From positions 124,001 through 188,000 of the forward strand of contig NZ_AWUN01000001.1 in assembly GCF_000499285.1 (NCBI RefSeq): 64,000 bases of DNA. Reading direction: 5' to 3'. This stretch comes from Bifidobacterium sp. 7101. GTDB lineage: Bacteria; Actinomycetota; Actinomycetes; Actinomycetales; Bifidobacteriaceae. This document shows positions 38,429 through 50,762 of this stretch, one piece after another. The notes beneath the pieces were generated by a model, which saw only the letters and a list, made by a program, of their open reading frames with translations, was not told the DNA's origin and searched no databases. Both the position numbers and the translations under genes were made by a program. Within the stretch, counting starts at the first letter, position 1. Each line of letters opens with the position of its first letter.

Positions 38429-39269
38429 CTATGCCGCATCGGTAAGGAAGATGTGTTTGTGATGATACTCGATAAATTCATGCGAGGGTCGGCTGATCGA
38501 TGGCAACGTGATTCTCTGGTCTTCGAAGGCATAGAGCCATTGATCGTTGATCGGTGAGTGCCTTACCTTGTCGTGGTTGACCATGATGCGGTAATCGTCG
38601 TCGATGGAGATAAGCCCTTGGTCAAAGGCTTGGTCGTGGAATGCATTGAGCAACAGGCCGTTCGATGCGGCGGTTTTTTCGGTCGGGGTTGATGCTTTCC
38701 ATGGTTTGATATGGCTGGCAATCAGCATCGAAGGTATCTGCATGCGGTGATGCAGCATGTGTACCGGTAGTTCAAGAGCAGTGAATTGCGGAAGTACGAC
38801 TGGTTGATCCGCTGAATCGTGGTCGCTTCGCGCTCGCCGCCTTCGGGATTGGGCTTGTGAAGCAGGAGCTTTGTTGCGGTTTCGAGCGGGGAATATCGGT
38901 CGGAGGCCAACGGTGCTGGGTGGAAATGTTGTTTGTTCGCTTGCAGGAGTGCACGTTGGAGCAAATCGAGGCACTCCGCCATGAAGGCATCAGGATTTTC
39001 TGCGTACCATTGCCAGACTTGGGAATCCAGCTTGTGCCATGCTTCATGCCCGCTTTGCCTTGGGCCTTCCGATTGACGTCATGGGCTGCGATGTTCCAGC
39101 TTTTCAAGGCAACAGAGTCGGGAGTGCGATGCAGGAATGACGCCAGACGCTGTACGTCTAGTCCATTGTCGTCACACTCTCTGGGCTCAAGCACGATGTA
39201 CAGGGCAAAGGCCATCATCGTTTCTTCACGCGACCAGTTGCGACGGCGTGATGCGACATTGACGTTCAT
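38429..39269 (-). pseudogene. HNH endonuclease (restriction-type), broken by two frameshifts
   Basis: Three frames join into one HNH protein. The first part, with GGGAG seven bases before ATG, is NWSREETMMAFALYIVLE ... RLASFLHRTPDSVALKSWN. The second, starting near 39027, is LDSQVWQWYAENPDAFMAEC ... GGEREATTIQRINQSYFR. The third, starting near 38745, is MQIPSMLIASHIKPWKAS ... NGLLLNAFHDQAFDQGLISI. Each junction is repaired by restoring one lost base; at the second, adding one G gives CCITGMQIPSML, which matches the usual CxxTG of these enzymes. The N-terminal region is like that of McrA/HNH modules with a DNA-binding front domain. It is a decayed defence nuclease, or the two losses are assembly errors. 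Confidence 0.65.
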
Positions 39270-39460
39270 TGCCATACTCCCAGGATAAGCGGCTATGAAG
39301 CTTCTGGGATGTGTATCTGACGTAATTTTGAAGTCTGCAAGGGTAAATGAGAATTACGAGCGAGGGAAGTGCTGGTTGACTGTTTGCAGACGTTCCAATT
39401 GCTGCTTTATTCTGGCTATATTGCTTTGTTTCTATGCGCACTGTGGAGGGAGAGGGACGG

Positions 39461-41887
39461 ATGGCAAGGGAGTTGGAGCTTTCGCCACGGCACGGTGGTG
39501 ATTTGGTCTCTGTTGAGTATTCGCTGGAGCTTGCTGATGACAAAGGAATAGAGGCTGGATTCCACGCTGATAAAACAACCGAAGATTTTGGTGATGGAAT
39601 CTATGTGGAATCCATTGAAGAAGACCCTGCAAGTGGCCATGTGCAAGATGACGCGCAGCTTGATTACAAGATCGCTGCGGCTTGTGGAGTGGTCGCGGGT
39701 TTATGTGATTCGATTTTTGTTGGCAAGTTCTCTCTGGACAAGGCGAACGAGTGGGGTTCGGAGAAAGTCAATGAATTCGTGGTTTGGGTGGCAAAGCAGC
39801 ATTCTGGTTTTAAAGGAGAGTCCCTGCGTGATGCCATTCAATTCCTAGAAAATCAATATCCTTTTGTTGGCGATAAGTACACGGCCGAATTCGGCGGCGG
39901 TTTGCAACATCATCTCAGAGATTTTTCTCACCACTTCTCCCTTGAAGGATTGGTGTTCTCGATACTCACTCAATTTACAGGAAAGGTATACGGCACCAAT
40001 CAAAACGGAGATTTCATTGCAGTCCCGGTGGAAGAACGATGGTTTAAGGAAGGTTTGATCGGCGATACCGTCTGCGAAAAGCTGTTCCTAGGCACGGTGC
40101 GATGGTTCTTTCACATGGCGTCAGACGCGCCGGGGTCAAGTTCGAATCCCGGTCAGGGCACGGGGGTACCTGGGCCTTTTCTTTCTATTATTAAGGAATT
40201 GTCCGCCTTGCCCGTGTTTAAAAATGCCATGGATTCCGGCATGGGGTTACGGAAACTTCTTTCCAAGATGTTCAATGGGACCTTATTCGCTCAAGTTGAT
40301 GATGAAGGTCGTAAAGTCCTTCGTAGGTTTAACCTGCGAACCGAAATCGGAATTGTGCATGTACTGGGGCGTCAGGCGCTTCCAGTGTTGCTGAATGAGT
40401 GCCTGACACGGGGCTGCTATTTTCTTCATCATCTTTATCTGGAGATGAAAAACAATGAAGTCGACTCTTTGGACGACCTGTCACAGCTGGATATGGATGT
40501 GGTCCTTCCATTCAATAATTCCAGAGTAGTCCGCATGGTATCCATTGCTTCGGCTACCTTTACTGCAGTGGATCTAGCGGATGCCGCTATTCGGGCCGCC
40601 TTGGTCGGGATTCTAGTAGGGGGATTCGATGGCAAGCTCTTCCTGCTGAAAATCAACTATGTAGGTGTGACTCGTCTGGTTTTCGCAATAGGTGTGGATG
40701 TCAAAACGGTATGGGAACGAAGAGCAAGCCACAGGCAGCGGCGGCAAAACGACGATTCGGCCGATCGGATGACAATGGAAATGCTCTCGTTGAAGCCGGA
40801 GCATCTATCTGTATTGTTCTCGATAGAGCGGTTGGCGCTTTGTGAGGATATAGATCGAAGTAGAGCAGTGGATCGGAGAGAAAAGGAAAAATGGTTTGAC
40901 AGGTGGTCTGGAAACCTGCCTGATGACTATGATCTCCTTAATCGCGGGCAAGTGAAACGGAGAATTGAAGAACTTGTTGCGCGGGACGGGGACACATGGA
41001 AAGCCTTGGTTCTGATTGAACTTGCGCGGTTCGCTCCGTATGACCTATATCGTTTTGAAACGGAGTCAGAGAATCCTGAGGGAGGGCCGGACTCCTCGAT
41101 CAAGAGAACTAAACGCCCAAAATTTGATTCAAAAATTCTCGAAGAATTATGGCGTGACGTAAGCGGCGATTCGGATAAATCTCCTGTGCAGCAGACCGCC
41201 AAGGCGCTGAATAAGAATGCCGGCGTATTGAATGGTAGCCGAACCAAAAAAATTGTCGGTGCTGCGGGGACTGCCGCGATTGCGGTTGCTACGGGAGGGG
41301 CAGCGTTTACATTAGCGCCGGTCATAGCGCCAGTCATAGCTCCGTTGTTTGCCGGATCGGCTGTTGCCGGCCTATCTGGTGCTGCTCTTACCAGTGCGAG
41401 CCTTGCAGCGGTTGGCGGTGGTGCATTGGCTGCTGGAGGCTTCGGTATGGCAGGCGGCACAGCCATAATCGCTGGTGGTGGTGCAGTCTTGGGTTTGGTC
41501 GGTGGTAGTGGGGTAACTGCTGTTGCTTCGCTTCTCACTGATTCCAAGGGAGCGTTTGCCCTCGACGAATGTTCGAAGCTCCTAACATTGTGCCAATCCG
41601 ACTTCGCTCAAGCCGATATGAAGCCAGAGACGATTGAACGGATCCGACAAGGCTTGCTCGATCAGATTGAACGAACGGAAATTCAGCAGGAGGTTCTCTC
41701 TATGCGTTCTGAAGATAAGGACCTAGACAAGGCTGAGAAGAAGGATACCAAGAAAGAGCTCTCCGGTCTTAAGAAGAGCTTGGAATACATGCGTAACTGC
41801 GAAAAGGAATTGGCGAAGCTTATTAATCAGAAAAGTCGCTCAAAGGAGACTGCGAGAGTTACGAAAGGTGATGTTGGGTCGGCCTGA
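39461..41887 (+). CDS. Unrecognised 808-aa protein with glycine/alanine-rich membrane region
   Basis: I do not know this family. GGAGGGAGAGGG lies before the chosen ATG. Residues ~65-90 contain a short hydrophobic helix (KIAAACGVVAGLCDSIFVG). Residues ~140-175 are aromatic and His-rich (LQHHLRDFSHHFSLEG). Residues ~365-410 hold further hydrophobic stretches. Residues ~597-695 are almost entirely Gly/Ala/Val/Ile/Leu with regular GxxxG spacing, as in pore-forming or membrane-inserting proteins. The last ~95 residues are highly charged and predicted coiled coil (KKDTKKELSGLKKSLEYMRNCEKEL). The gene lies between a decayed HNH nuclease and a tRNA-Ser integration site and has lower GC than the chromosome around it, suggesting acquired DNA. 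A defence or toxin role is possible but is inference. Confidence 0.7.
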   Translation: MARELELSPRHGGDLVSVEYSLELADDKGIEAGFHADKTTEDFGDGIYVESIEEDPASGHVQDDAQLDYKIAAACGVVAGLCDSIFVGKFSLDKANEWGSEKVNEFVVWVAKQHSGFKGESLRDAIQFLENQYPFVGDKYTAEFGGGLQHHLRDFSHHFSLEGLVFSILTQFTGKVYGTNQNGDFIAVPVEERWFKEGLIGDTVCEKLFLGTVRWFFHMASDAPGSSSNPGQGTGVPGPFLSIIKELSALPVFKNAMDSGMGLRKLLSKMFNGTLFAQVDDEGRKVLRRFNLRTEIGIVHVLGRQALPVLLNECLTRGCYFLHHLYLEMKNNEVDSLDDLSQLDMDVVLPFNNSRVVRMVSIASATFTAVDLADAAIRAALVGILVGGFDGKLFLLKINYVGVTRLVFAIGVDVKTVWERRASHRQRRQNDDSADRMTMEMLSLKPEHLSVLFSIERLALCEDIDRSRAVDRREKEKWFDRWSGNLPDDYDLLNRGQVKRRIEELVARDGDTWKALVLIELARFAPYDLYRFETESENPEGGPDSSIKRTKRPKFDSKILEELWRDVSGDSDKSPVQQTAKALNKNAGVLNGSRTKKIVGAAGTAAIAVATGGAAFTLAPVIAPVIAPLFAGSAVAGLSGAALTSASLAAVGGGALAAGGFGMAGGTAIIAGGGAVLGLVGGSGVTAVASLLTDSKGAFALDECSKLLTLCQSDFAQADMKPETIERIRQGLLDQIERTEIQQEVLSMRSEDKDLDKAEKKDTKKELSGLKKSLEYMRNCEKELAKLINQKSRSKETARVTKGDVGSA

Positions 41888-42032
41888 TCAATGACGGCGC
41901 TGGGGTGGGAATCATGCCGAGATGTGCAAGCATCGGATTCCGCGGATTGCTGTCTTGGGAAACGAGGATGCGACGTCAATTTTTGCTAGCTTGACCATTG
42001 TCGATCACAGTGAGGTCGTGGAGGTGAGTAGC

Positions 42033-42061
42033 AAAAAGGGGTTTTGGAACCCCAAAACCCC
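42033..42061 (-). terminator. Displaced original terminator of the tRNA-Ser gene
   Basis: On the minus strand GGGGTTTTGG pairs with CCAAAACCCC (loop of four), followed by TTTTT. It abuts the left copy of the tRNA 3' end, and so is the chromosomal terminator that was separated from its tRNA when the element integrated. Confidence 0.7.
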
Positions 42062-42062
42062 C

Positions 42063-42083
42063 TGCTGGCGGAGGATACGAGAT
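42063..42083. repeat. Left attachment site (copy of the tRNA-Ser 3' end)
   Basis: Identical over 21 bases to 50672-50692, which is the 3' end of the tRNA-Ser gene including CCA. The following base differs (A versus T), so the repeat ends there. No tRNA remains attached to this copy. Confidence 0.85.
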
Positions 42084-42610
42084 ACCAACCTAAACAACCA
42101 CTAAACACTGCTGCCTAACGGGATTACAGAGAATCAGGAAACCGGCAAACCACCTAATTCACCACCTAAGTCAAGGTATTGTGAGTACCCCAACGGCCTT
42201 GAAAGACACTACCATGATACCCCACAGGAAGGCTATGCATCCGAACGGGGGGCAGGGAAGCGCTCGCGAGCGCCACGGTTGTGAATCAGTTGGGTCACTT
42301 CTGTCTCGATTATTGGGATGCATTCGGAAACAATAAGAAACTATGTTCCTTCGTAACAATCTGTTCTGTGGATATTCGAAAATTACTGCATCGTGTCATT
42401 TGTGACGCAACTTCCGCTATCCAAATCACACAACTCCGGATATAGATAGCCTCGCTAGAATAGGGCATGATTACATATCTTAAACAGTTACGATGTTGCA
42501 TCAGCAAGAAAAATGGTGACGCTTAAACCTTTGCAAAACCGGTCTCTTAGTTGAGGAACCAAAGCAAGTTTGTTCGCATGTTATGTGATTATGGATATAT
42601 GGTGCAAACA
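42084..42610. other. Left end of the element: arm-type repeats and palindrome, no gene seen
   Basis: The stretch contains the paired repeat ACCACCTAnnTCACCACCTAA at 42149-42169 and the 14-bp palindrome GCGCTCGCGAGCGC at 42260-42273. The last 200 nt are AT-rich and probably carry the promoter for the following gene (TAGAAT near 42457). Short frames present look random. Confidence 0.4.
42149..42169 (+). repeat. Left integrase arm-site-like direct repeats
   Basis: ACCACCTAAT and TCACCACCTAAG are two 11-bp-spaced copies of a CACCTAA core. The same arrangement and orientation occurs at 50522-50541, close to the other end of the element. Confidence 0.45.
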
Positions 42611-43507
42611 ATGTCAGAACCGGTTTCAGTCGCCAGGATGACCGCACACTATCAAGGCGACGCTCTGCGGAATCACGAGATTGATGTGAGGCAGTTGGGG
42701 CCTGCCTTGGTGGGGCTGTCACTGTCTTTCGAGAGGGCACAGGCGCTCGTGGATCCTGGTTATCGCATCAAACTCAATGCAAAAGCCACAAGCGAGGGGT
42801 CGGTCGTCATAGACCTTATCCTACGTATCACGAACGATGTTGTTCCCTTCCTTTCCAGCGACGAGGCCAGTGCAGCTGCGAACGCGATTGAGATAGGCGC
42901 GTTCGTCTTCGGTGGGATCAGACTGACATCCAACGCTATTCTCCATCATGGCAAGCCCAAGAAGGTGGAGGATACCAAAGGTGACGATTCGAAGATTGAT
43001 GTCAAATACCCAGATGGCACCATCGAACGCACATACCCGGAATCCTTGGAGATGATAGGCGATCCAGGTTTCGTCAAAGGGGTGAAGGATGCCACCGCTC
43101 CGGCGCTGTGCGACGGCATAGACCGCATAGAGTTTCATCTATCGGATGTGTCTGAAACCGTCACTCAGGAGGATGCCGAGGCCATCGATAGCTACGATGT
43201 GTCCGATAGCGACACCACCGTCTCGGAGATGGAGATGGTGGTTCAGGCATTGCAGCCATCATTCCAGGAAGACGGGAAATGGCGCATCACCGATGGCATC
43301 AAGAAGCAGTACGTGTCTATCGACGATGCCGCTTTCAAAAAGCGTGTGCTCGATTCCATCGAGTCTCTCAGAGCCAACGACACCTATAAGGTCATCATGA
43401 AGGTGGAGAAGAAGTTCGACTCCAAGAACCAGCTGTCGACTAGGTATATCGCTATAGAGAAAGTCATCGACCACAAGCACATGGAGGAGCAAGGAGCACT
43501 CTTCTAA
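42611..43507 (+). CDS. Uncharacterised element protein (~298 aa)
   Basis: A soluble protein without recognised domains. The region MTAHYQGDALRNHEIDVRQLGPALVGLSLSFERAQ resembles the start of proteins often found in phages and integrated elements of actinobacteria, with no known function to my knowledge. The C-terminal third is charged (KVIMKVEKKFDSKNQ). No good ribosome site decides among the ATGs at 42578, 42599 and 42611; I chose 42611 because the conserved-looking part begins just after it. It is transcribed toward the structured non-coding stretch. Confidence 0.6.
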   Translation: MSEPVSVARMTAHYQGDALRNHEIDVRQLGPALVGLSLSFERAQALVDPGYRIKLNAKATSEGSVVIDLILRITNDVVPFLSSDEASAAANAIEIGAFVFGGIRLTSNAILHHGKPKKVEDTKGDDSKIDVKYPDGTIERTYPESLEMIGDPGFVKGVKDATAPALCDGIDRIEFHLSDVSETVTQEDAEAIDSYDVSDSDTTVSEMEMVVQALQPSFQEDGKWRITDGIKKQYVSIDDAAFKKRVLDSIESLRANDTYKVIMKVEKKFDSKNQLSTRYIAIEKVIDHKHMEEQGALF

Positions 43508-44382
43508 GATGACCTAACGTTTAGTTGTCAAAGGATCTTTGACAGCCGTGTCATGTTGGCTCCTGTGCGGCTTGGTGTAGCGTAGCCAATCAAGTATTGC
43601 GCGGTAATCCCGAGCGCTTGCGTGGTCACATCAAACTCGCTAACCATCCGGTAGGTGACACCATTGTATAAGGCCTCAGCTGTACAGCATCAGCAAGGCT
43701 GTATGTGGGTAAACCTGGCTGACGCACTTAGCGACGCCCTAGATTGAATCTAGGGGCTTTGGAGGCTGAGCCGTACCTCATGGCAAGCGCAGCTGAATAC
43801 CTATTGTATGGGGGTAGTGGTTCGCCACCCCCATGTCCGAGGCTTAGTCGTGTGGGATGGGTCCGACTTATGCCACCCTAGTTGCGTGTATGACACACGT
43901 AGTTGCCACATGGCCGGAGTTACATGGCTGAGGTTCCGTCTATTCCAACTGTGGGTATCACATCCACGGCTGTCCAAGCCGGAACCAGCGGTTCCTTGGG
44001 TGGGGTCATATAAAATGCTATGGATGGTTGCGTCCGTGATGGACACAACTGATCTCTCTGTCACTGGTGTCAGTAACTGATGGTTCCCGAATGCCCATGT
44101 TGAGCTCAGTGGCGTACATGATTCAGGTGGGTTCACTAGTACTGAGCTCCATCCAACCGACCCTTTCAAGACACTAGCAGACAGAGGAATCTTCCGCGGT
44201 CTAAATCAGACTTATGTCCTAACTCTGGGTTGGGATCAGCGATAGAGCCACATTATCGAGTCTGTGATCCGGCTGGAAAATTTTGAACTCTCCGCACTTG
44301 CAAGCCAGCTCACCGGCGGTCTTGTCACCACCGGTAAGCCCCCCCCCCCTAGGTGCTTGCGAATGGTTAATCTTTACTGGAG
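43508..44382. ncRNA. Candidate large structured RNA (about 0.8 kb), strand unresolved
   Basis: No convincing protein is encoded here, yet inverted repeats are unusually dense. Perfect or near-perfect stems: 43526-43533/43537-43544 (TGTCAAAG/CTTTGACA), 43556-43561/43584-43589 (TTGGCT/AGCCAA), 43737-43743/43749-43755 (CCCTAGA/TCTAGGG), 43808-43834 (ATGGGGG..GTGG-TTCG-CCAC..CCCCAT), 43932-43938/43980-43986 (GGTTCCG/CGGAACC, enclosing two smaller hairpins, i.e. a multi-branch junction), 44027-44034/44041-44049 (GTTG.GTCC/GGAC.CAAC), 44102-44110/44141-44149 (GAGCTCAGT/ACTGAGCTC), and 44233-44238/44265-44270 (GGATCA/TGATCC). Size and location in a tRNA-linked element recall GOLLD/ROOL-type giant RNAs, but I cannot show homology. 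Confidence 0.4.
44339..44349. repeat. C-homopolymer, 11 bases
   Basis: Eleven consecutive C right after the hairpin-like ACCGGcGGTcttgtcACCaCCGGT (44311-44334) and 34 bases beyond the 3' end of the membrane-protein gene. Confidence 0.9.
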
Positions 44383-45153
44383 TTACAATTTTTTAGCTAT
44401 ATCCTGGAGCGATTTTATAACCTTTTCTAAGTCGCTGCTGGGTCGAACCATACCTCGACCGTACTCAAAATCCAGAACAAAATTGTCCTTTGGACATTTT
44501 TGCCGATTGAGATCACTGTATTCTACAGTGCCCTCTAGGGCATAAGAATAATCTTTCAATTTATCTATATTAGCGTAGAAACCAAGCAGATAAGTCATGG
44601 TAGAGTTCGGGGGAATTGCCAAAATTGTTCTTTCCAACACATCTTTGCGAAAACCTCCAGTCATCACTTCGTCTGTTCCCACACCACCGTCTAATAATGA
44701 GATCAGTGTTTGTTTCATCGTTTCGTCGTATCCCTTAAGCCTTATTCGCACGTTGGTGGCAGAAGTACTCCCGACATTGCTGACATTCACGAATACCGTC
44801 CCTCCTTTCACAAAATGATTAACCTGGATATGAGCTCTGGTTTTATCCCAATGCTCATTGCGACGTTCCTGACGCTGCTTATTCCATTCACTCTGTTGCG
44901 AATACAGTTCATAGAATGCGATAAGTGCCGCTCCAACAGCCACGAGAAAAGTACCGAACCCCCACCATGCAGACCAGTCAATATCTCCGGCAAAGACATC
45001 TACCAATGTCTCGTTTAAGTTCCAGTCATGCTTGAACCATTGCCAAAGTATTGGCAACATAATAAAAATCGCAATAGCAATGACAAATTTTGGTTTATTT
45101 GGCGGCAGCTGGTACCACCAATTCTTCTCATTGTTTGATTTTGTTTCGTTCAT
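44383..45153 (-). CDS. Small membrane protein with extracytoplasmic-type beta domain, unknown function
   Basis: A 256-residue protein with two N-terminal membrane helices (residues ~22-40 and ~63-85), a short charged coiled segment (SQQSEWNKQRQERRNEHWDK) and a C-terminal beta-rich domain (HIQVNHFVKGGTVFVNVSNVGSTSATNVRIRLKGYD). Such proteins are common accessory cargo in integrated elements, often as an immunity or exclusion factor, but no function is known to me. GTAGGAGC touches the ATG, so the ribosome site is unusually close. It is AT-richer than its neighbours. Confidence 0.65.
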   Translation of the reverse strand: MNETKSNNEKNWWYQLPPNKPKFVIAIAIFIMLPILWQWFKHDWNLNETLVDVFAGDIDWSAWWGFGTFLVAVGAALIAFYELYSQQSEWNKQRQERRNEHWDKTRAHIQVNHFVKGGTVFVNVSNVGSTSATNVRIRLKGYDETMKQTLISLLDGGVGTDEVMTGGFRKDVLERTILAIPPNSTMTYLLGFYANIDKLKDYSYALEGTVEYSDLNRQKCPKDNFVLDFEYGRGMVRPSSDLEKVIKSLQDIAKKL

Positions 45154-45335
45154 GCTCCTACGCTAGCGCCTTGTAAAGCCTGTTGTGAGTCTAGCAACGG
45201 TGTTGCTGACACCTCTTTACTGTTCCTTAGCCTTGTGCCGGGCTAAAACAGGAAGAAAACGGAATGGGAAACTTGAGACGCACGAAAAGGAGTTTCGGCG
45301 GCGCGGGGACGGGTTGGTTAATTGCCTTACTCTCG

Positions 45336-45348
45336 CCCCCCCCCCCCC
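45336..45348. repeat. C-homopolymer, 13 bases
   Basis: Thirteen consecutive C, 183 bases upstream of the membrane-protein start on its promoter side. It reads as a G-run on the coding strand of that gene. Confidence 0.9.
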
Positions 45349-45652
45349 TACTCCGTATGGAATCCAACCGCTACCCACAGTTATTGTGACAACGCTATTT
45401 AAGGTCGTTATTCTGCTGTATCGATTGGCTTCTCTCCATTATCGTGACGAAGGTAAAATAAGATAGATGAGGTTGGTTGGCGAGCGCCTATGTCCTTGGT
45501 TGGATGGTCCTGGTGGCCTCATGGTGAAGGGTCTGAGCGTCTTGGATTACTCATGGCTCCATCTGGCTGGGTCCAAATAAAAAACGACTCTCACGGCGCA
45601 TGCATGTCCGGTGGTGCTATCCGGCGGTCTTCGCCTAGGGCTGGCGGGAGTG

Positions 45653-45664
45653 CCCCCCCCCCCC
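45653..45664. repeat. C-homopolymer, 12 bases
   Basis: Twelve consecutive C, located inside a short open frame that begins at ATG 45604 and 17 bases before the ATG of the tiny ORF at 45681. Confidence 0.9.
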
Positions 45665-45680
45665 GGAGCCCTTGGTCATC

Positions 45681-45764
45681 ATGGGTCTGCTCACCGAGGA
45701 AGACCAGAAGGCACTCGCGAGCGTTGGAATCCTCTCGCAAGCCTGCATATGCGGATCTAGATAG
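45681..45764 (+). CDS. Possible 27-aa peptide (phase-variable fusion candidate)
   Basis: The peptide MGLLTEEDQKALASVGILSQ... looks protein-like but has no ribosome site. An upstream frame from ATG 45604 crosses the 12-C run and is two bases out of frame with it; with 10 or 13 C the two would fuse. This may be coincidence. Confidence 0.2.
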   Translation: MGLLTEEDQKALASVGILSQACICGSR

Positions 45765-45839
45765 GCATGCAGGAGTGGAACGGCTTTCCTCTGGATAGAT
45801 GGTCGTCCCACTCTTGCCTCTTCTATCATGTCTTCAGGG

Positions 45840-47333
45840 TCAAGCGATCTTTTGGCATTCCTGTTTCATGGTCGTGTCCTGCTGTCTCCGGTCTCGCCTA
45901 TACAGTTCCTCGTTGGCCTTGTTTATCCACAGCCCTGGCTTTTGATTCCTTATTGCTATGAGCTGCCGCTTGGTAAGTGTGGCCCAATCGACGCTACCCA
46001 CGAACTGGGGGAGTGTAGTCAGCCAAGAGGTTATGTCAGGGTTAGGCTCTTCCTTGGATGAGCCGCGTTGGTCATTATCCTTCCGCTGGCCTTGCGCGTT
46101 TGGAGTCTTCGCCTCATTATGCGTGCCACCTTGCCACCTTGACTGTATAAAGGGCTGGGAGGCATTGGAATCGTTGGGCTGAGGGGAAGGTGGCACGAGC
46201 ACTTCTGGTACGCCACCTTGCCACCTTGTGCCCCCACGGGAACCGTTGGAATCATTGGAAGGTGGCAAGGTGGCAAGGTGGCGCGAACCTGTAGTGAACC
46301 ACCACCACTCACCGCCGAACCTTTTGGACTCGAACCGGTATCCCTTGCATCTTCTGCGAGCGTCCTTGAGTTGCTGTTTCGTGTATTCGCCGCTGCCTGC
46401 GGCAATGACTTCATTGGCAGGAAACCCACAACCTAGCATGTCGGGTGTGCTTCGTTTGTTCTGCTGGTAGTAGTCGATGATGAACTGCTGACAGTCGTTG
46501 GGCTCATCGTCGCCCAGGTCGATGGACGTGTTGACTACCTCGGTAACGCTACGGTCGGAGTGGGCCCAACCGGTCACATGGCCCACGCTCATGGGTTCTC
46601 CGTTGTCGTCCTTCATGTTCACGGATTCTAGGCGGAAGCTCCAGTTATGCTCGGAGGCGGGCAGGTTGCTGTAGTTGGCCTTGTCCTGGGAGACTGTCAC
46701 TTCCCCAGTCTCAGGATCCTGAGCCATGGTCAGCAGGGAACGGCAAATGTCAATGTAGGCATGGGATCCGCTGACCATATGCCTGGCGTTCCTACCGCTG
46801 CCCTTACCAAAGTGCAACAACCCCACTATCGTCACGTCCAGCCTCCGGGCGAGTGCAGCCAAAGGGTTAAGTGCTTTGCGCACATCATCCCTCTTGTTTC
46901 CGTCGCCTCCCACCAGGTTGGACAGGGGGTCAACAATCAGGAAGGGGCTGCTATTTGTTTCCAGAGCTTCCTCCAACGCGTCGATATTGTCAGGTAGCAG
47001 GTAGTCACAAAGGACTTCTTCTCCCTGTTCGTTGTAGCGCTCGCCTATAGGCACTGCACGGCTCACGTCGGCTCCAGCGGCCAACAGGCGGGCTTTGAGC
47101 ATTGAACGGCTGTCTTCCGGAGAATAGATGCATACGTTCATAGGCTGTCCTTGGTGGTCTCCAGGTAATGCCCCCTGAGTAGCTTTGGCCGCCCAGTCTA
47201 ACACCAGGGTGCTTTTGCCTATGCCGCTCTCACCGGCGACGATGTTTAGTACACCTTCAACAAGTATCTGGTCATACAGGAACCTAGGCCGCGCAATCCT
47301 GTCATATGACAGATCCTTATACCTCTCGTTCAC
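45840..47333 (-). CDS. AAA/RecA-like ATPase, putative replication protein of the element
   Basis: A 497-residue protein. GTG is the start, with a near-perfect AAGGAGGTGAGG site; the frame is open for 98 further codons upstream but overlaps another gene. Walker A is GESGIGKST near residue 38, Walker B is PFLIVDPLSNLVGG, and VGLLHFGKGSGRNARHMVSGSHAYIDICRSLLTM follows the sensor, as in the RepA/DnaB-like AAA_25 ATPases of phages and plasmids. The C-terminal 200 residues are low-complexity, with repeated RWQGG and NDSN. The gene overlaps the upstream 204-aa gene (GTGA). It probably unwinds DNA or loads replication proteins on the element. Confidence 0.8.
   Translation of the reverse strand: MNERYKDLSYDRIARPRFLYDQILVEGVLNIVAGESGIGKSTLVLDWAAKATQGALPGDHQGQPMNVCIYSPEDSRSMLKARLLAAGADVSRAVPIGERYNEQGEEVLCDYLLPDNIDALEEALETNSSPFLIVDPLSNLVGGDGNKRDDVRKALNPLAALARRLDVTIVGLLHFGKGSGRNARHMVSGSHAYIDICRSLLTMAQDPETGEVTVSQDKANYSNLPASEHNWSFRLESVNMKDDNGEPMSVGHVTGWAHSDRSVTEVVNTSIDLGDDEPNDCQQFIIDYYQQNKRSTPDMLGCGFPANEVIAAGSGEYTKQQLKDARRRCKGYRFESKRFGGEWWWFTTGSRHLATLPPSNDSNGSRGGTRWQGGVPEVLVPPSPQPNDSNASQPFIQSRWQGGTHNEAKTPNAQGQRKDNDQRGSSKEEPNPDITSWLTTLPQFVGSVDWATLTKRQLIAIRNQKPGLWINKANEELYRRDRRQQDTTMKQECQKIA
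46125..46282. repeat. Iteron-like cluster of eight AAGGTGGC / GCCACCTT copies
   Basis: GCCACCTT occurs at 46125, 46133, 46212 and 46220, and AAGGTGGC at 46187, 46259, 46267 and 46275, all within 158 nt of the ATPase gene. The block 46211-46227 forms a perfect 17-bp inverted repeat with 46267-46283. Confidence 0.75.
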
Positions 47334-47944
47334 TCGTCCCTCACCTCCTTCTCTAGGAGATCTGCCGCTATACGAGGCCATGGGTCTCCTGCGAGTGTCG
47401 CCAGAGTCTTGAGTATTTGGGATGGTTTGCTCCCATGTTCCAGCACTTCCTTTTGGTGTATGCCGGCACAGGTGGCGAGGCGAGCATGCATGTAAGCGGC
47501 ATCTCTGCGAGCGCGGGAAGGTACTAAGCCCGAGTTGAGTAAAGTACTGGTAGCTTGGTCTGTGGGAACACTCACGAGCAGTATTCTGCGGTACGCCTGG
47601 CTTAGGCTGGGCGTGAAAGCTAGACATCCGTCAGGACTCAGCAGGCTGGCTGCCTGCACCATGACGCTTGCTCCTTGGTCAGAAACGCGAGCGGTTACAG
47701 CCACTGGCATGGGGCGGATATTTGAAGCCAAAACCAGCAAGGCGAGGCATCTCGCCGCCCGGTCGGTATGGAGGCTGATGCTGCGCGAGTAGAAGCCGTA
47801 CGCTGTTTCCAGCAGGTAGTCGCTCACAGTCTCAAGTACGTAACTGACCTGATTGGCTTCGTCATCTTCGACGGATATACTAGAGAAGTACGTTCCAGTA
47901 ACCCCTGTGCCGTCGGCACTGGGGTCCACATTTACTCCTGTCAT
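47330..47944 (-). CDS. Uncharacterised 204-aa element protein
   Basis: I see no recognised domain. The middle contains two hydrophobic strands (CLALLVLASNIRPMPVAV, RILLVSVPTDQATSTLLNSG), then an Arg/Ala-rich helix with HARLATCAGIHQKEVLEHG and a C-terminal acidic helix. Its stop overlaps the GTG of the ATPase gene and its start is 6 nt after the excisionase-like gene, so all three are one operon. A helper or primase-accessory role for the ATPase is only a guess from coupling. Confidence 0.65.
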   Translation of the reverse strand: MTGVNVDPSADGTGVTGTYFSSISVEDDEANQVSYVLETVSDYLLETAYGFYSRSISLHTDRAARCLALLVLASNIRPMPVAVTARVSDQGASVMVQAASLLSPDGCLAFTPSLSQAYRRILLVSVPTDQATSTLLNSGLVPSRARRDAAYMHARLATCAGIHQKEVLEHGSKPSQILKTLATLAGDPWPRIAADLLEKEVRDE

Positions 47945-47950
47945 GTTCTG

Positions 47951-48199
47951 CTAGTCCTCGATATAGGCTTTGAGACTGGCATAGCTGACCAGGAAAATAC
48001 GACCCGACTTGCGGGCCTTGACCTCCCCCTGATGAATGAGCCGGTACGTGCTTTTCGTGTCCTTGAAACCAAGCAGGCGCGTGGCCTCGGACACGGAGAC
48101 GGATAATGGGGTCAGGTTGCCGCTGCCGTCCTGATGATGGTATGAGCGGTTCCGGGTGTCCTTCATGGACGGAATTGCTGATAGTGCTTCCTGTGGCAT
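47951..48199 (-). CDS. Excisionase-like helix-turn-helix protein
   Basis: An 82-residue MerR/Xis-type DNA-binding protein. The core is SVSVSEATRLLGFKDTKSTYRLIHQGEVKARKSGRIFLVSYASLKAYIED, the usual pattern of the excisionase/AlpA helix-turn-helix family. AGGAAG precedes the ATG at 48199. It heads the operon with the 204-aa protein and the ATPase. It is likely the recombination directionality factor for the integrase, or the regulator of the operon. Confidence 0.75.
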   Translation of the reverse strand: MPQEALSAIPSMKDTRNRSYHHQDGSGNLTPLSVSVSEATRLLGFKDTKSTYRLIHQGEVKARKSGRIFLVSYASLKAYIED

Positions 48200-48210
48200 G
48201 TACACTTCCT

Positions 48211-48335
48211 AAAAACAGGGCGTTGCCTGAACCCCAAGCAGGGGCGCGGGCAGACTTCGATTAAATCTGCTGACACATAAAGCTGCGCGACGCTGACCTG
48301 TTTGTTAAGCGCTGGTGACGCTTTGCCCTGTTTTT
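48211..48335. repeat. 11-bp inverted repeat flanking the element's central control region
   Basis: AAAAACAGGGC (48211-48221) and GCCCTGTTTTT (48325-48335) are perfect inverted copies separated by 103 nt, upstream of the Xis-like operon. GCGTTGCC also occurs twice, at 48220 and 48340. A promoter/operator or an origin is plausible. Confidence 0.55.
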
Positions 48336-48475
48336 AAGTGCGTTGCCACTGACCCGAATATTACGTGGAGAGTAATTCCACGGGCCTTGGATGAAGGGGA
48401 AGGCACCCCCACTTAGCTCCGATTACTCGAAACCAGTAATTCACACCTTAACACGGAGTATGGAGGGCTTCAACG

Positions 48476-48985
48476 TCATACAATATCGAATTCGGTCAGT
48501 GAACATGGCGCATATCCTTTGAAGGCTTTAGCAATCAATTGGAATTGTCTGAAGTTACCCTCACCACTAAAACAACTCTCCTCGCCACAAGCCCTAATCA
48601 CAACATCTCGCCCCCGGTAATATATGCCTTCAGGATGATTCAATGGCCTATGTAGACGTGTAAGAATCCGCGTCTGCTTTTTTACGCAAAAGACACCCCA
48701 TGCCACAGGAACCAAGTCGCCCAAATCCGTTAATTCATCAGCATATTGCGGCAATGTTATTGCATCACTGGCCGCATACTTCAGAAGAGCCGTGGCCATC
48801 TGATCCACATGGGCGTCTGGCTCGGATTTCAACTCCTCAGGGAAGAGACGCAAAACACCTTCCTCATACGAATACTCCATCATGGACTTAAAAGCTTTTC
48901 TGGCATCCTCTTTTGAATAATCCTCCTGAAACATTGCCGGAACCGCTTTCCGCAATGTATTCAACGTTCGTGTGTCCAATCGCAT
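48476..48985 (-). CDS. Uncharacterised 169-aa element protein
   Basis: I do not recognise the family. It is soluble, mixed alpha/beta, with an acidic helical first half (DYSKEDARKAFKSMMEYSYEEGVLRLFPEELKSE) and a C-terminal half rich in aromatic residues and Cys (RGRDVVIRACGEESCFSGEGNFRQF). AAAGGA is eight bases before the chosen ATG; another ATG two codons upstream is too close to it. The start lies at the integrase stop, so both are cotranscribed. Confidence 0.6.
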   Translation of the reverse strand: MRLDTRTLNTLRKAVPAMFQEDYSKEDARKAFKSMMEYSYEEGVLRLFPEELKSEPDAHVDQMATALLKYAASDAITLPQYADELTDLGDLVPVAWGVFCVKKQTRILTRLHRPLNHPEGIYYRGRDVVIRACGEESCFSGEGNFRQFQLIAKAFKGYAPCSLTEFDIV

Positions 48986-48987
48986 AA

Positions 48988-50442
48988 TCATATTCCTTTC
49001 AATAGTTCCTGCATGGTCTCCGCCTGCACCTGTTTGGAGAAGCAGGCCAGGACCTCGTTCCGTCGTACCGAGGGCAACCCTTTCAACACCTGGGCCCGAA
49101 CCTCCAAATCCATGGACTCCAAGGCGCTCGCGAGCGCCTCCAGCTCCTGCACATCCTGGCGGCCGGATTCAGTGTCATGTTGAGGGCTTTCCTTGTGCTC
49201 CGCCGCCTCGCCTTCGGCCTCTATGCCTGCGAGGATCTTCCCGCGCTCGCTTTCGGTGACGTGCTGGTAGTGCATGGCCGTGCTGACCTGGGTGTGACCA
49301 CCCTGGGCCATGACGGCCTTGATGCTGTTGGTGTGCTTGGCGACCTCGGTCAGGGCCCGGTGTCGCAGGTCATAGAGCCTCAGCCTCCTCTGCTCCAGGC
49401 GGGGCACGGCCTTGCGGGCACGATACCAGGCGTTGCGCACCGACTGGTCAAACACCAGGCCCCTGGTGCGCTCGCCGGTGAACAGCCAGGCGTTGGGCCG
49501 ATCCTCCACATACGTGTCCAGGTGGTGACGGATATGGGGGATGAGGAATGGTGGCAGTTCTAGGTCGCGCACGCTGCCCTTGGTCTTGGTGCTGCCCACC
49601 TCCATGACCTTGTGGCCGTTCTTCATGATGCCCTTGGCGCTCTTGGTGACATGCACCACGCCGCCGGAGCCGTCCTCCGCCAGTTCGATGTCCCTGCGTT
49701 GCAGCGCGTACGCCTCCCCGGGTCTGAGGCTGAGGACTCCCACCAAGTAGAGGACCAGTGAGAACCGTCCTGGCATGGCCTCGGCCAGGGTGTTCAATTC
49801 GTCCATGGACACGTCACCGTAGGCACGGTTCGAGTCGGGCCGGTCCACTTTCAGGAGCACCGGATTGTTCTGGAGAAGGGTGGTACCGTCCTCGTCCAGC
49901 GGCTTGGAGCAGGCCTCCTTGAAGATGGCGCTGAGCAGCTCCCACACATGCCGTTTGATGCTGGCACCCTCGCCGGCCTTGCCGACCTTCATGGAGTCGG
50001 CCCAACGCTGTATGTCCTTCGGGCCTATCGCGGCCATGGTCATGTCCCCCAGGATGGGCAGCAGGTCGTCCCTGAGGTACTGCTCGTACTTCTGGCGGGT
50101 GGTGGGTGCTATCGGCTCCCCGTTGGCCTTGCGATGCTCCTGGAGGTATGCGGCCGAGTATTGGGCGAAAGTGACGGCCTCGGCCTTGCGGGAGTCCTCC
50201 TCGATCCTTGGCGGCTGCCAGGTGTCCATGCGTATGGCCGTCTCGGCCTCGTTGAGCCATCGCTCCGCCTCGGTCTCGAATCCCACCGGGAAGCGTCTGG
50301 TGATCCGCTTGGGCAGGCCCGGCCACTTGGAGTAGGCACTGACGGGCGGCTGGTAGCGGGCCTCGAGATATTTGCGCCCGGATTTGGCATCGGTCTTCAC
50401 TGGCATGGAGCCGAACCTCCTGCGCCTCGCCCTCTTCGCCAT
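48988..50442 (-). CDS. int: Tyrosine recombinase (integrase) of the element
   Basis: A 484-residue phage-type integrase. The start MAKRARRRRFG is chosen over a GTG-like start eleven codons upstream because it gives the usual basic arm-binding N-terminus. A SAM-like core-binding domain follows (TFAQYSAAYLQEHRKANG). The catalytic domain has Arg in SLRPGEAYAL, YDLRHRA in place of the common H-x-x-R (Tyr replaces the first His), GGHTQ, and the nucleophile Tyr in AMHYQH. A long C-terminal tail of ~80 residues (charged, helical) is unusual. It lies next to the tRNA-Ser it uses as target and promotes integration and excision between the 21-bp repeats. Confidence 0.92.
   Translation of the reverse strand: MAKRARRRRFGSMPVKTDAKSGRKYLEARYQPPVSAYSKWPGLPKRITRRFPVGFETEAERWLNEAETAIRMDTWQPPRIEEDSRKAEAVTFAQYSAAYLQEHRKANGEPIAPTTRQKYEQYLRDDLLPILGDMTMAAIGPKDIQRWADSMKVGKAGEGASIKRHVWELLSAIFKEACSKPLDEDGTTLLQNNPVLLKVDRPDSNRAYGDVSMDELNTLAEAMPGRFSLVLYLVGVLSLRPGEAYALQRRDIELAEDGSGGVVHVTKSAKGIMKNGHKVMEVGSTKTKGSVRDLELPPFLIPHIRHHLDTYVEDRPNAWLFTGERTRGLVFDQSVRNAWYRARKAVPRLEQRRLRLYDLRHRALTEVAKHTNSIKAVMAQGGHTQVSTAMHYQHVTESERGKILAGIEAEGEAAEHKESPQHDTESGRQDVQELEALASALESMDLEVRAQVLKGLPSVRRNEVLACFSKQVQAETMQELLKGI
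49123..49138. repeat. Second copy of the CGCTCGCGAGCG palindrome
   Basis: GGCGCTCGCGAGCGCC, a perfect 16-bp palindrome inside the integrase gene. Its 14-bp core is the same as at 42260-42273. Confidence 0.5.
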
Positions 50443-50490
50443 GGACCACCGCCTCCGAACATCCCTGTCTGGCATGTCCTGCCAGGCACT

Positions 50491-50547
50491 TAGGTGGTGA
50501 GTTTGCCATCATCGAAACCGCACCACCTATCTCACCACCTAACTTAG
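50491..50547 (+). repeat. Right integrase arm-site-like repeats
   Basis: CACCACCTATCTCACCACCTAA at 50521-50542 matches the left-end repeat in spacing and orientation. An inverted copy (TAGGTGGTGAG) lies at 50491-50501. They sit between the integrase start and the tRNA. Confidence 0.45.
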
Positions 50548-50638
50548 CGCATTCAACGGCTCCCAAAGGAATCAAACGGTGCAGTTGGAAACAGGGAAAA
50601 AGGCACGGAAACGGCGGAATACCGCCGGTATCGGCATG

Positions 50639-50670
50639 AAAAAAGGGTTTTGAACGGTTGTTCAAAACCC
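50639..50670 (-). terminator. tRNA-Ser terminator supplied by the element
   Basis: On the minus strand GGGTTTTGAAC pairs with GTTCAAAACCC (loop of four), followed by six T. It replaces the original terminator now found at 42033-42061. Confidence 0.8.
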
Positions 50671-50671
50671 T

Positions 50672-50692
50672 TGCTGGCGGAGGATACGAGAT
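50672..50692. repeat. Right attachment site within tRNA-Ser
   Basis: A 21-base sequence identical to 42063-42083 that covers the acceptor 3' strand, CCA end and part of the T-arm of tRNA-Ser, so integration rebuilds an intact tRNA. Confidence 0.85.
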
Positions 50693-50762
50693 TCGAACTC
50701 GTGAGGGCGTGAACCCAACACGCTTTCCAAGCGTGCGCCATAGACCACTAGGCGAATCCTCC
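50675..50762 (-). tRNA. tRNA-Ser (anticodon GGA)
   Basis: An 88-nt gene. The acceptor stem GGAGGAT pairs with ATCCTCC, followed by G and an encoded CCA. The anticodon stem CACGC/GCGTG has loop TTGGAAA (anticodon GGA, reading UCC/UCU). A long variable arm follows, as required for serine tRNAs, then the T-loop GTTCGAATC. It is the integration target of the neighbouring element. Confidence 0.95.

Follow-up and report, generated by a model that had tools for sequence, protein, structure and literature searches.

Antirepressors lift the hold of the repressor in temperate phages. Phage satellites of the PICI kind carry an integrase, a replication-type gene and cargo, and integrate site-specifically at tRNA. 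Phage P22 silences its antirepressor gene ant by means of the sar RNA, and phages P1 and P7 do so with the c4 RNA (PMC12197685). The sar RNA is encoded by the phage, is 68/69 nt long and interferes with translation initiation; c4 is structured, and heteroimmunity depends on the sequence-specific pairing that it forms with ant mRNA (PMC12197685).

Here we describe a stretch of DNA from Bifidobacterium sp. 7101, located at positions 43508-44382 of the 64,000 nt that were analysed (the window), which the original prediction, made from the letters alone, had put forward as a giant structured RNA. The stretch is located in an integrative element, has homologues in two sister elements, retains its hairpins beyond what is seen in column shuffles, and resembles a dyad of antirepressor genes beyond chance.

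An integrative element at tRNA-Ser and its relatives

The 21-nt att core is found at 42063 and 50672, the latter copy at the tRNA-Ser(gga) gene (50675-50762), which adjoins a tyrosine integrase gene and an AAA_25 replication-type gene. Since the copy at 42063 repeats the tRNA-end sequence, the element is placed at 42063..50692 (~8.6 kb, no strand assigned). The stretch had been described as part of an element, and it does lie inside this tRNA-linked one, between a candidate defence gene of the PADLOC family PDC-S42 / phrog_3243 (42551..43507, + strand), which occupies the space between att and the array, and an opposite-strand cargo gene of 256 aa (44383..45153, - strand) without a Pfam match. 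The AAA_25 / DnaB-like replication-type gene (45840..47627, - strand) was identified by family search, and the tyrosine integrase of the element (48988..50475, - strand) by family search and comparison within the genus. The integrase, the AAA_25 gene and att were thus recovered, five proteins having been scanned, and no structural gene was present among these five. This gene content suggests a small, satellite-like element with an integrase, a helicase-like replication gene and defence-type cargo. A distant blastn search with the stretch gave no match at 1e-5 in plasmid and phage collections; at E up to 10, eight phage records were returned (E 3), none with more than 5% coverage. No homologue of the stretch was found downstream of relatives of the 318-aa gene, and no viral relatives of that gene or of the replication gene were found.

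A dispersed repeat followed by a C tract (44277..44349, no strand assigned), also seen in other genomes of the genus, is taken as the 3′ limit of the array and is probably not part of it. The repeat, with the motif ..GAACyCTCCGCACTTGC..CACCGGCGGTCT.., occurs also at window 45581-45665 and in L002, L003, L004 and L131; C or G runs often follow it. Several genomes of the genus have it, and in the element it lies close to boundaries of cargo. Two blocks without a named gene (window 45202-45347 and 45657-45803) are 68-69% identical to the sister region L038 and flank exchanged cargo; cargo slots seem to lie between conserved non-coding blocks. Just outside the att copy, a large gene (window 39434-41887) has a BnzB match in PADLOC. 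The first 81 residues of an ORF at window 38772-39275 match the first 81 of the 282 positions of an HNH restriction-type PADLOC model, and this ORF is perhaps a fragment.

Blastn with the stretch gave matches in six of 99 genomes, its own included, all of them short except the window itself. The match in G008 extends to two collinear blocks spanning 531 nt in the window stretch and 800 nt in G008. An 18-kb region, L038, contains a sister element with the same tRNA-Ser, integrase and replication gene and a second att copy; here the non-coding stretch lies directly beside an att copy, and the replication gene contains stops. L038 2950-17448 has two integrases and, near 2950, 7682 and 17363, three att copies, an arrangement that suggests tandem elements at tRNA-Ser. 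A covariance model built from the window and L038, run over 189 genomes of the family, revealed a third stretch in G010 (E 3.5e-6). This locus, L131, again holds an element at tRNA-Ser(gga); its stretch lies near att and is followed by a gene homologous to that of 256 aa. Of 27 genomes of the genus, the three with these elements have an integrase at least 70% identical to that of the window, the next best being 41% identical.

Cargo differs widely among the three elements, the PDC-S42 / phrog_3243 gene being absent from the corresponding place in both L038 and L131, and the stretch is retained. Homology, which the original prediction had been unable to show, is seen in two stretches with conserved hairpins. 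Four collinear blocks, designated h1, h4-h2, h6 and the 3′ hairpin, are common to the window, L038 and L131; the regions between them scarcely align, and the window stretch before 43710 has no match to L038. The conserved part of the stretch is approximately 43709-44245.

Hairpins of the stretch and their conservation

The conserved non-coding stretch of hairpins and dyads (43709..44245, + strand) was delimited by its collinear homologous blocks in L038 and L131. It includes h1, a perfect dyad with a 1-nt centre (CCCTAGATTGAATCTAGGG, 43737..43755, no strand assigned), the 17-nt core of which is identical in four of 189 family genomes (reversed control 0), the L131 copy being changed. The core stands alone in two other genomes (L039 13105 and L040 11235), in one case upstream of a 200-aa gene beside tRNA-Gly and in the other near a phage-type gene. 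A viral match of the h1 core (L033) lies in a phage coding region and was taken as chance, as were 16 of the 18 genome stretches with the core, the other two being from Bifidobacterium. Hairpin h3 (ATGGGGG..CCCCCAT, 43808..43834, + strand) is enclosed by a short stem, 43755-43758 / 43846-43849, and G-run/C-run hairpins occupy its position in L038 also and, by eye, in L131. The neighbouring h4 (43852..43876, + strand) has a G.G mismatch common to all three elements. Further along are h6 (GGGTTCA..TGAGCTC, 44124..44152, + strand), in a block common to the three elements, and the 3′ hairpin block (GTCCTAACTC..GGTTGGGATC, 44205..44240, + strand), which is likewise shared. Hairpin h2 is described in the following section.

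Dense inverted repeats had been reported for this DNA, and the two stems that were named are exactly placed (GGTTCCG at 43932 with CGGAACC at 43980, and GAGCTCAGT at 44102 with ACTGAGCTC at 44141). When perfect stems with loops of up to ~50 nt are counted in 43508-44382 and compared with 40 dinucleotide shuffles, there are 4 of at least 8 bp versus 0.4 (sd 0.7, max 2), 5 of at least 7 bp versus 2.2 (max 7), and 12 of at least 6 bp versus 7.5 (max 11). The repeats are thus real, the longer stems being clearly beyond chance but the shorter ones hardly so. A count of strict inverted repeats (at least 8 Watson-Crick pairs, 60 shuffles) gave 4 versus 0.8 (max 4) in the window, 7 versus 0.9 (max 4) in L038, and 2 versus 0.9 (max 4) in L131, which is unexceptional by this count. 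Folding compared with shuffled sequence was unremarkable on the + strand (z -1.5, 3 of 20 shuffles as good) and set the stretch apart on the - strand (z -4.25). Single-sequence folding of 43700-44290 gave z -1.2 on the + strand, with 12 of 100 shuffles as good, and z -3.6 on the - strand; in L038 the value is about -5 on both strands.

Conservation was assessed by running RNAalifold on sequence-only alignments against column shuffles, in blocks chosen after viewing. With two sequences, the z-scores on the + and - strand, respectively, are -5.0 and -3.0 for the 5′ domain, -4.6 and -1.9 for h4-h2, and -3.5 and -0.4 for the 3′ hairpin. With three sequences they are -3.9 and -3.4 for the 5′ domain, -5.7 and -2.1 for h4-h2, -2.6 and -2.6 for h6, and -4.6 and -3.3 for the 3′ hairpin; the joined blocks give -6.2 (0/300) and -5.7. 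The original prediction had left the strand open; the + strand is somewhat favoured, chiefly by h4-h2, with the joined blocks nearly equal on the two strands and single-sequence folding of the window stretch better on the - strand. No promoter-like site was found on the + strand from 42000 to 43709, which we take as no evidence either way, and promoter and terminator counts are near the shuffle level except for the promoter-like sites of L038 (4 versus 1.6, sd 1.3).

In the two-sequence alignment, under the structure chosen from that same alignment, 29 of 29 pairs form in both sequences, with three double and five single changes, a count that does not beat shuffles (equalled in 72/500). The three-sequence alignment has 88.9% of its cells paired, a proportion that 206/500 shuffles also attain. 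Shifting the partner by 1-3 columns reduces pairing to 21-48% (two sequences) or 27-45% (three sequences). A structure-aware alignment of the window with L038 did not score above its control (z 1.0), and the compensatory counts from it were for this reason left unused. The hairpins are conserved; pair counts among the three sequences do not exceed the pair-shuffle controls.

The stretch is non-coding, as had been claimed, no conserved protein being found when its ORFs were checked against Pfam, PHROG and L131. ORFs of 122 aa (- strand) and 90 aa (+ strand) have no Pfam match; the former aligns with a similarly placed 124-aa ORF of L131 over only 9 residues (E 0.084), and the latter has one weak PHROG hit (E 0.0039). 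A pseudogene reading was rejected, as no ORF is shared among the elements. Rfam covariance models (4227 in the set, with the families named in the original prediction not individually confirmed among them) gave no match to GOLLD, ROOL, OLE, HEARO or raiA. At gathering scores only tRNA-Ser was found in the window and nothing but tRNA in the sister regions. Relaxing E to 10 gave five weak matches in 43400-45000, none of them to GOLLD, ROOL, OLE, raiA or HEARO, and at E up to 1 the L131 and L038 stretches gave three, none to the named families. The c4 model likewise gave no match at gathering scores and nothing near at relaxed E. By this Rfam test the stretch is not GOLLD or ROOL. What endures of the large structured RNA first proposed is the set of conserved hairpins, the lack of a protein and the tRNA-linked element; its assignment to GOLLD, ROOL or another Rfam family does not.

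A palindrome in antirepressor genes and its counterparts in the elements

The hairpin pattern of h2 gave one contig hit in a viral collection of 2.9 million contigs, which may lack the records closest to the window's genome; the hit lies inside an antirepressor gene (Pfam P22_AR_N, E 1.4e-29). The h2 sequence is also found in the antirepressor genes of G019 and G189, and the gene of G189 and the viral gene encode the same protein. In G180 the h2 core has a hit with 2 mismatches, which we discarded as within chance by our own estimate (~5 expected), although the reversed control gave 0. Genes of the P22_AR_N type are present in 12 of 189 family genomes.

Alignment of the antirepressor genes reveals a 27-nt palindrome (13+1+13) at one fixed codon position (W-A-[VT]...T-G or V-G), the ends of which are conserved while the core differs between phages, with matched changes in the two arms. 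Twelve genomes and 18 viral loci supplied the alleles, the same gene being present in some of the IMG/VR and genome loci; 25 of these 30 loci were kept (L147-L149 were dropped, and L144 and L150 gave no row), yielding 16 distinct 27-mers. In these, 188 of 208 pairs are Watson-Crick, and the mismatches include A.C (9) and G.T (7). The dyad site has 10-13 of 13 pairs in 20 of 23 distinct gene contexts, above elsewhere tested in the same gene stretch; the exceptions are the distant genes L147-L149, with 4-5 pairs. The central symmetry in the phage genes may come partly from codon constraints.

Ten named phages were chosen from 117 matching records, and seven of them have a clear dyad (11-13 paired of 12-14); the dyad of P22 ant is 26 nt long, lies at the same place and has 12/13 pairs. 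It is weaker in L178 (8/10) and poor in L179 (9/13) and L184 (11/15). Altogether a variable-core palindrome of 25 to 27 nt is found in L182 (P22), L183, L175-L177, L180, L181, L133-L143, L145, L146 and L151-L162, that is, in P22 and in phages of Bifidobacterium-family genomes, Gordonia, Rhodococcus, Corynebacterium, Propionibacterium and Pseudomonas, the hosts of viral contigs having been checked only where the same gene is seen in a genome of this family. In 12 regions searched, of which L166 and L172 are shorter, there is no second copy of the dyad within ~10 kb of the antirepressor gene, the best other match being 18/27; these phages therefore show no paired antisense RNA of this kind within that distance, and both a phage operator elsewhere and a phage-encoded paired RNA were rejected as the counterpart. 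Among the titles and opening lines of abstracts searched in the open-access literature, no report of the antirepressor palindrome was found.

Antirepressor-type units occur in all three elements, at 43879, 43946 and 44025 in the window, 8128 and 8620 in L038, and 7727, 7889 and 7945 in L131, with best matches of 24/27, 21/27 and 23/27, respectively. Unit 1 of the window is h2 (43879..43905, + strand), which matches the antirepressor dyad of L157/L162/L133 at 24/27 in antisense orientation, with 22 contiguous nt; it is complementary to ant mRNA, the 24/27 being to the antisense strand of the L157/L162 dyad. Unit 2 (43946..43972, + strand) matches the L154 dyad at 20/27 and lies inside the stem 43932/43980, and unit 3 (44025..44051, + strand) matches at 18/27, or 19 with a larger dyad set. 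The L131 unit at 7727 has 21 contiguous nt in common with the antirepressor gene of one phage, with no other contig hit for this 21-mer in the viral collection; for a 19-mer of an L038 unit, no viral contig matched exactly. The target being palindromic, either orientation of a unit is complementary to it, and for the other units complementarity would follow only from this property of the target. Further arrays considered in L079, L084, L074 and L165 were dropped, their units matching at 18-19/27 with at most 8/13 pairs.

Summed best matches to the 16 dyads come to 822, compared with 736 (sd 9) for shuffled cores and 715 (sd 7) for shuffled arms, neither of which reached this value in 300 trials, and with 767 (sd 12.6) when only arm positions 6-11 are shuffled (0/500). 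These dyad shuffles keep the pairing; with 500 trials, three schemes in all gave 0/500. The single best match of 24 was attained in 2/500 under the strictest shuffle and in 3/500 with random cores. As a genomic control, 1410 overlapping 740-nt segments from elsewhere were scored against 22 dyads, giving a mean of 324.5 and a maximum of 354; the window scores 385 and L131 374, and none of the 1410 segments is as high. Segment 7885-8624 of L038, which cuts its second unit, scores 336, within the control range (88/1410 as high), and segment 7911-8650, re-placed to include that unit after the first had scored 336, reaches 367, above the maximum.

Possible function and comparison with known systems

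We tentatively regard the stretch as a conserved non-coding module of the element, a + strand RNA with hairpins that pair to antirepressor mRNA, a possibility to which we give somewhat less than an even chance. The stretch would be transcribed from the + strand, hairpins of the transcript would base-pair with antirepressor mRNA, and this pairing would silence antirepressor synthesis; the silencing would keep resident or incoming temperate phages from lysis, which is the job of sar in P22 and of c4 in P1. Transcription, pairing, the effect on phages and the benefit to the element are all steps that we infer. The units of the elements resemble several phage alleles, which fits a repertoire directed against varied phages, and hypervariable cores would be easier to understand if recognition were by base pairing. 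Against an RNA reading counts the known site of sar and c4 action, which is translation initiation, unlike the coding-region dyad. It is possible, but rather doubtful, that the palindromes form a repertoire in a fuller sense, in which allele-specific antirepressor copies on one transcript would give the host immunity to antirepressor-driven induction; such a repertoire would be the satellite-like counterpart of a diversifying P22_AR_N palindrome that extends from Bifidobacterium phages to P22.

The strongest competing reading is an array that serves as DNA, in the manner of a decoy or sensor. Its dyads would be bound by a dimeric protein, of phage or host, which binds the antirepressor dyad as well, and the element would titrate or sense this protein without any RNA. 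We see this as a real contender, though on the unlikely side. The symmetry about a single central base, with the innermost position Watson-Crick in 15 of the 16 distinct antirepressor dyads and in 8/8 units, speaks for it, as do A.C and G.T mismatches in about equal number and the perfect dyad h1 with its 1-nt centre and a core identical in four genomes; symmetry that reaches the centre, together with such mismatches, fits double-stranded DNA no worse than it fits an RNA hairpin. However, cores that are hypervariable between phages would require a protein varying with them, no second copy was found within ~10 kb of the antirepressor gene, loops of 2-8 nt are present in several other hairpins of the stretches, and h4-h2 is better conserved on the + strand. 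The size of the stretch, its tRNA-linked mobile element, its hairpins and its conserved blocks would also suit a large structured RNA with some other function, in a context like that of GOLLD or ROOL, the likeness to the dyad then being secondary, for example through binding of a common factor. This is unlikely in our judgement: there is no Rfam match, the parts between the blocks hardly align, and the core-specific antirepressor matches would be left without explanation.

Non-coding DNA that is rich in hairpins, close to att and structured on both strands, in an element that has a replication-type gene, might instead serve as a replication, transfer or packaging site (a single-strand origin, oriT, or cos/pac-like site), the hairpins acting as DNA. 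Such a site would not explain the similarity to a phage coding-region palindrome, and cargo lies between the stretch and the replication gene, so that we consider it quite improbable. Decayed coding sequence, or a chance accumulation of repeats with no function, would agree with the unremarkable single-sequence folding energy of the + strand in the window and with the dispersed repeats and C tracts nearby, but the preservation of collinear blocks in three genomes despite exchange of much of the cargo, the lack of a shared ORF, and unit matches beyond the controls make it very improbable.

A hypervariable palindrome of antirepressor genes is here connected with arrays of similar palindromes in non-coding DNA of small mobile elements, a connection of which we found no earlier mention. 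Should the arrays indeed act on that palindrome, one mobile element would control by nucleic acid the lysis-lysogeny switch of others, with a target range that can be read from sequence. Whatever the arrays do, the antirepressor genes retain a coding-region palindrome, with coupled changes in its arms, from actinobacterial phages to P22.

Satellites of the PICI kind are resembled in that the element has an integrase, a replication-type gene, cargo and att at a tRNA; in contrast to them, it gave no PICI hallmark in family searches of five of its proteins. With GOLLD and ROOL the stretch has in common a length of several hundred nt, many hairpins and a phage- or tRNA-linked mobile context, but it has no covariance-model match, and no antirepressor-type units are described for those RNAs in the text consulted (PMC12286853). 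The proposed pairing would liken it to c4 of P1 and P7, which is structured and pairs sequence-specifically with ant mRNA; c4, however, is a phage-encoded RNA of 77 nt that acts around the ribosome-binding site, and the stretch has no Rfam family match. From sar the stretch differs in being several hundred nt long with several hairpins, in residing on a separate element, and in matching a coding-region palindrome. Like sar of P22, and 24B_1 of phi24B, it would as proposed here be an RNA directed at antirepressor mRNA, and P22 ant, the target of sar, is a relative of the antirepressor genes described above, with its 26-nt dyad at the same place.
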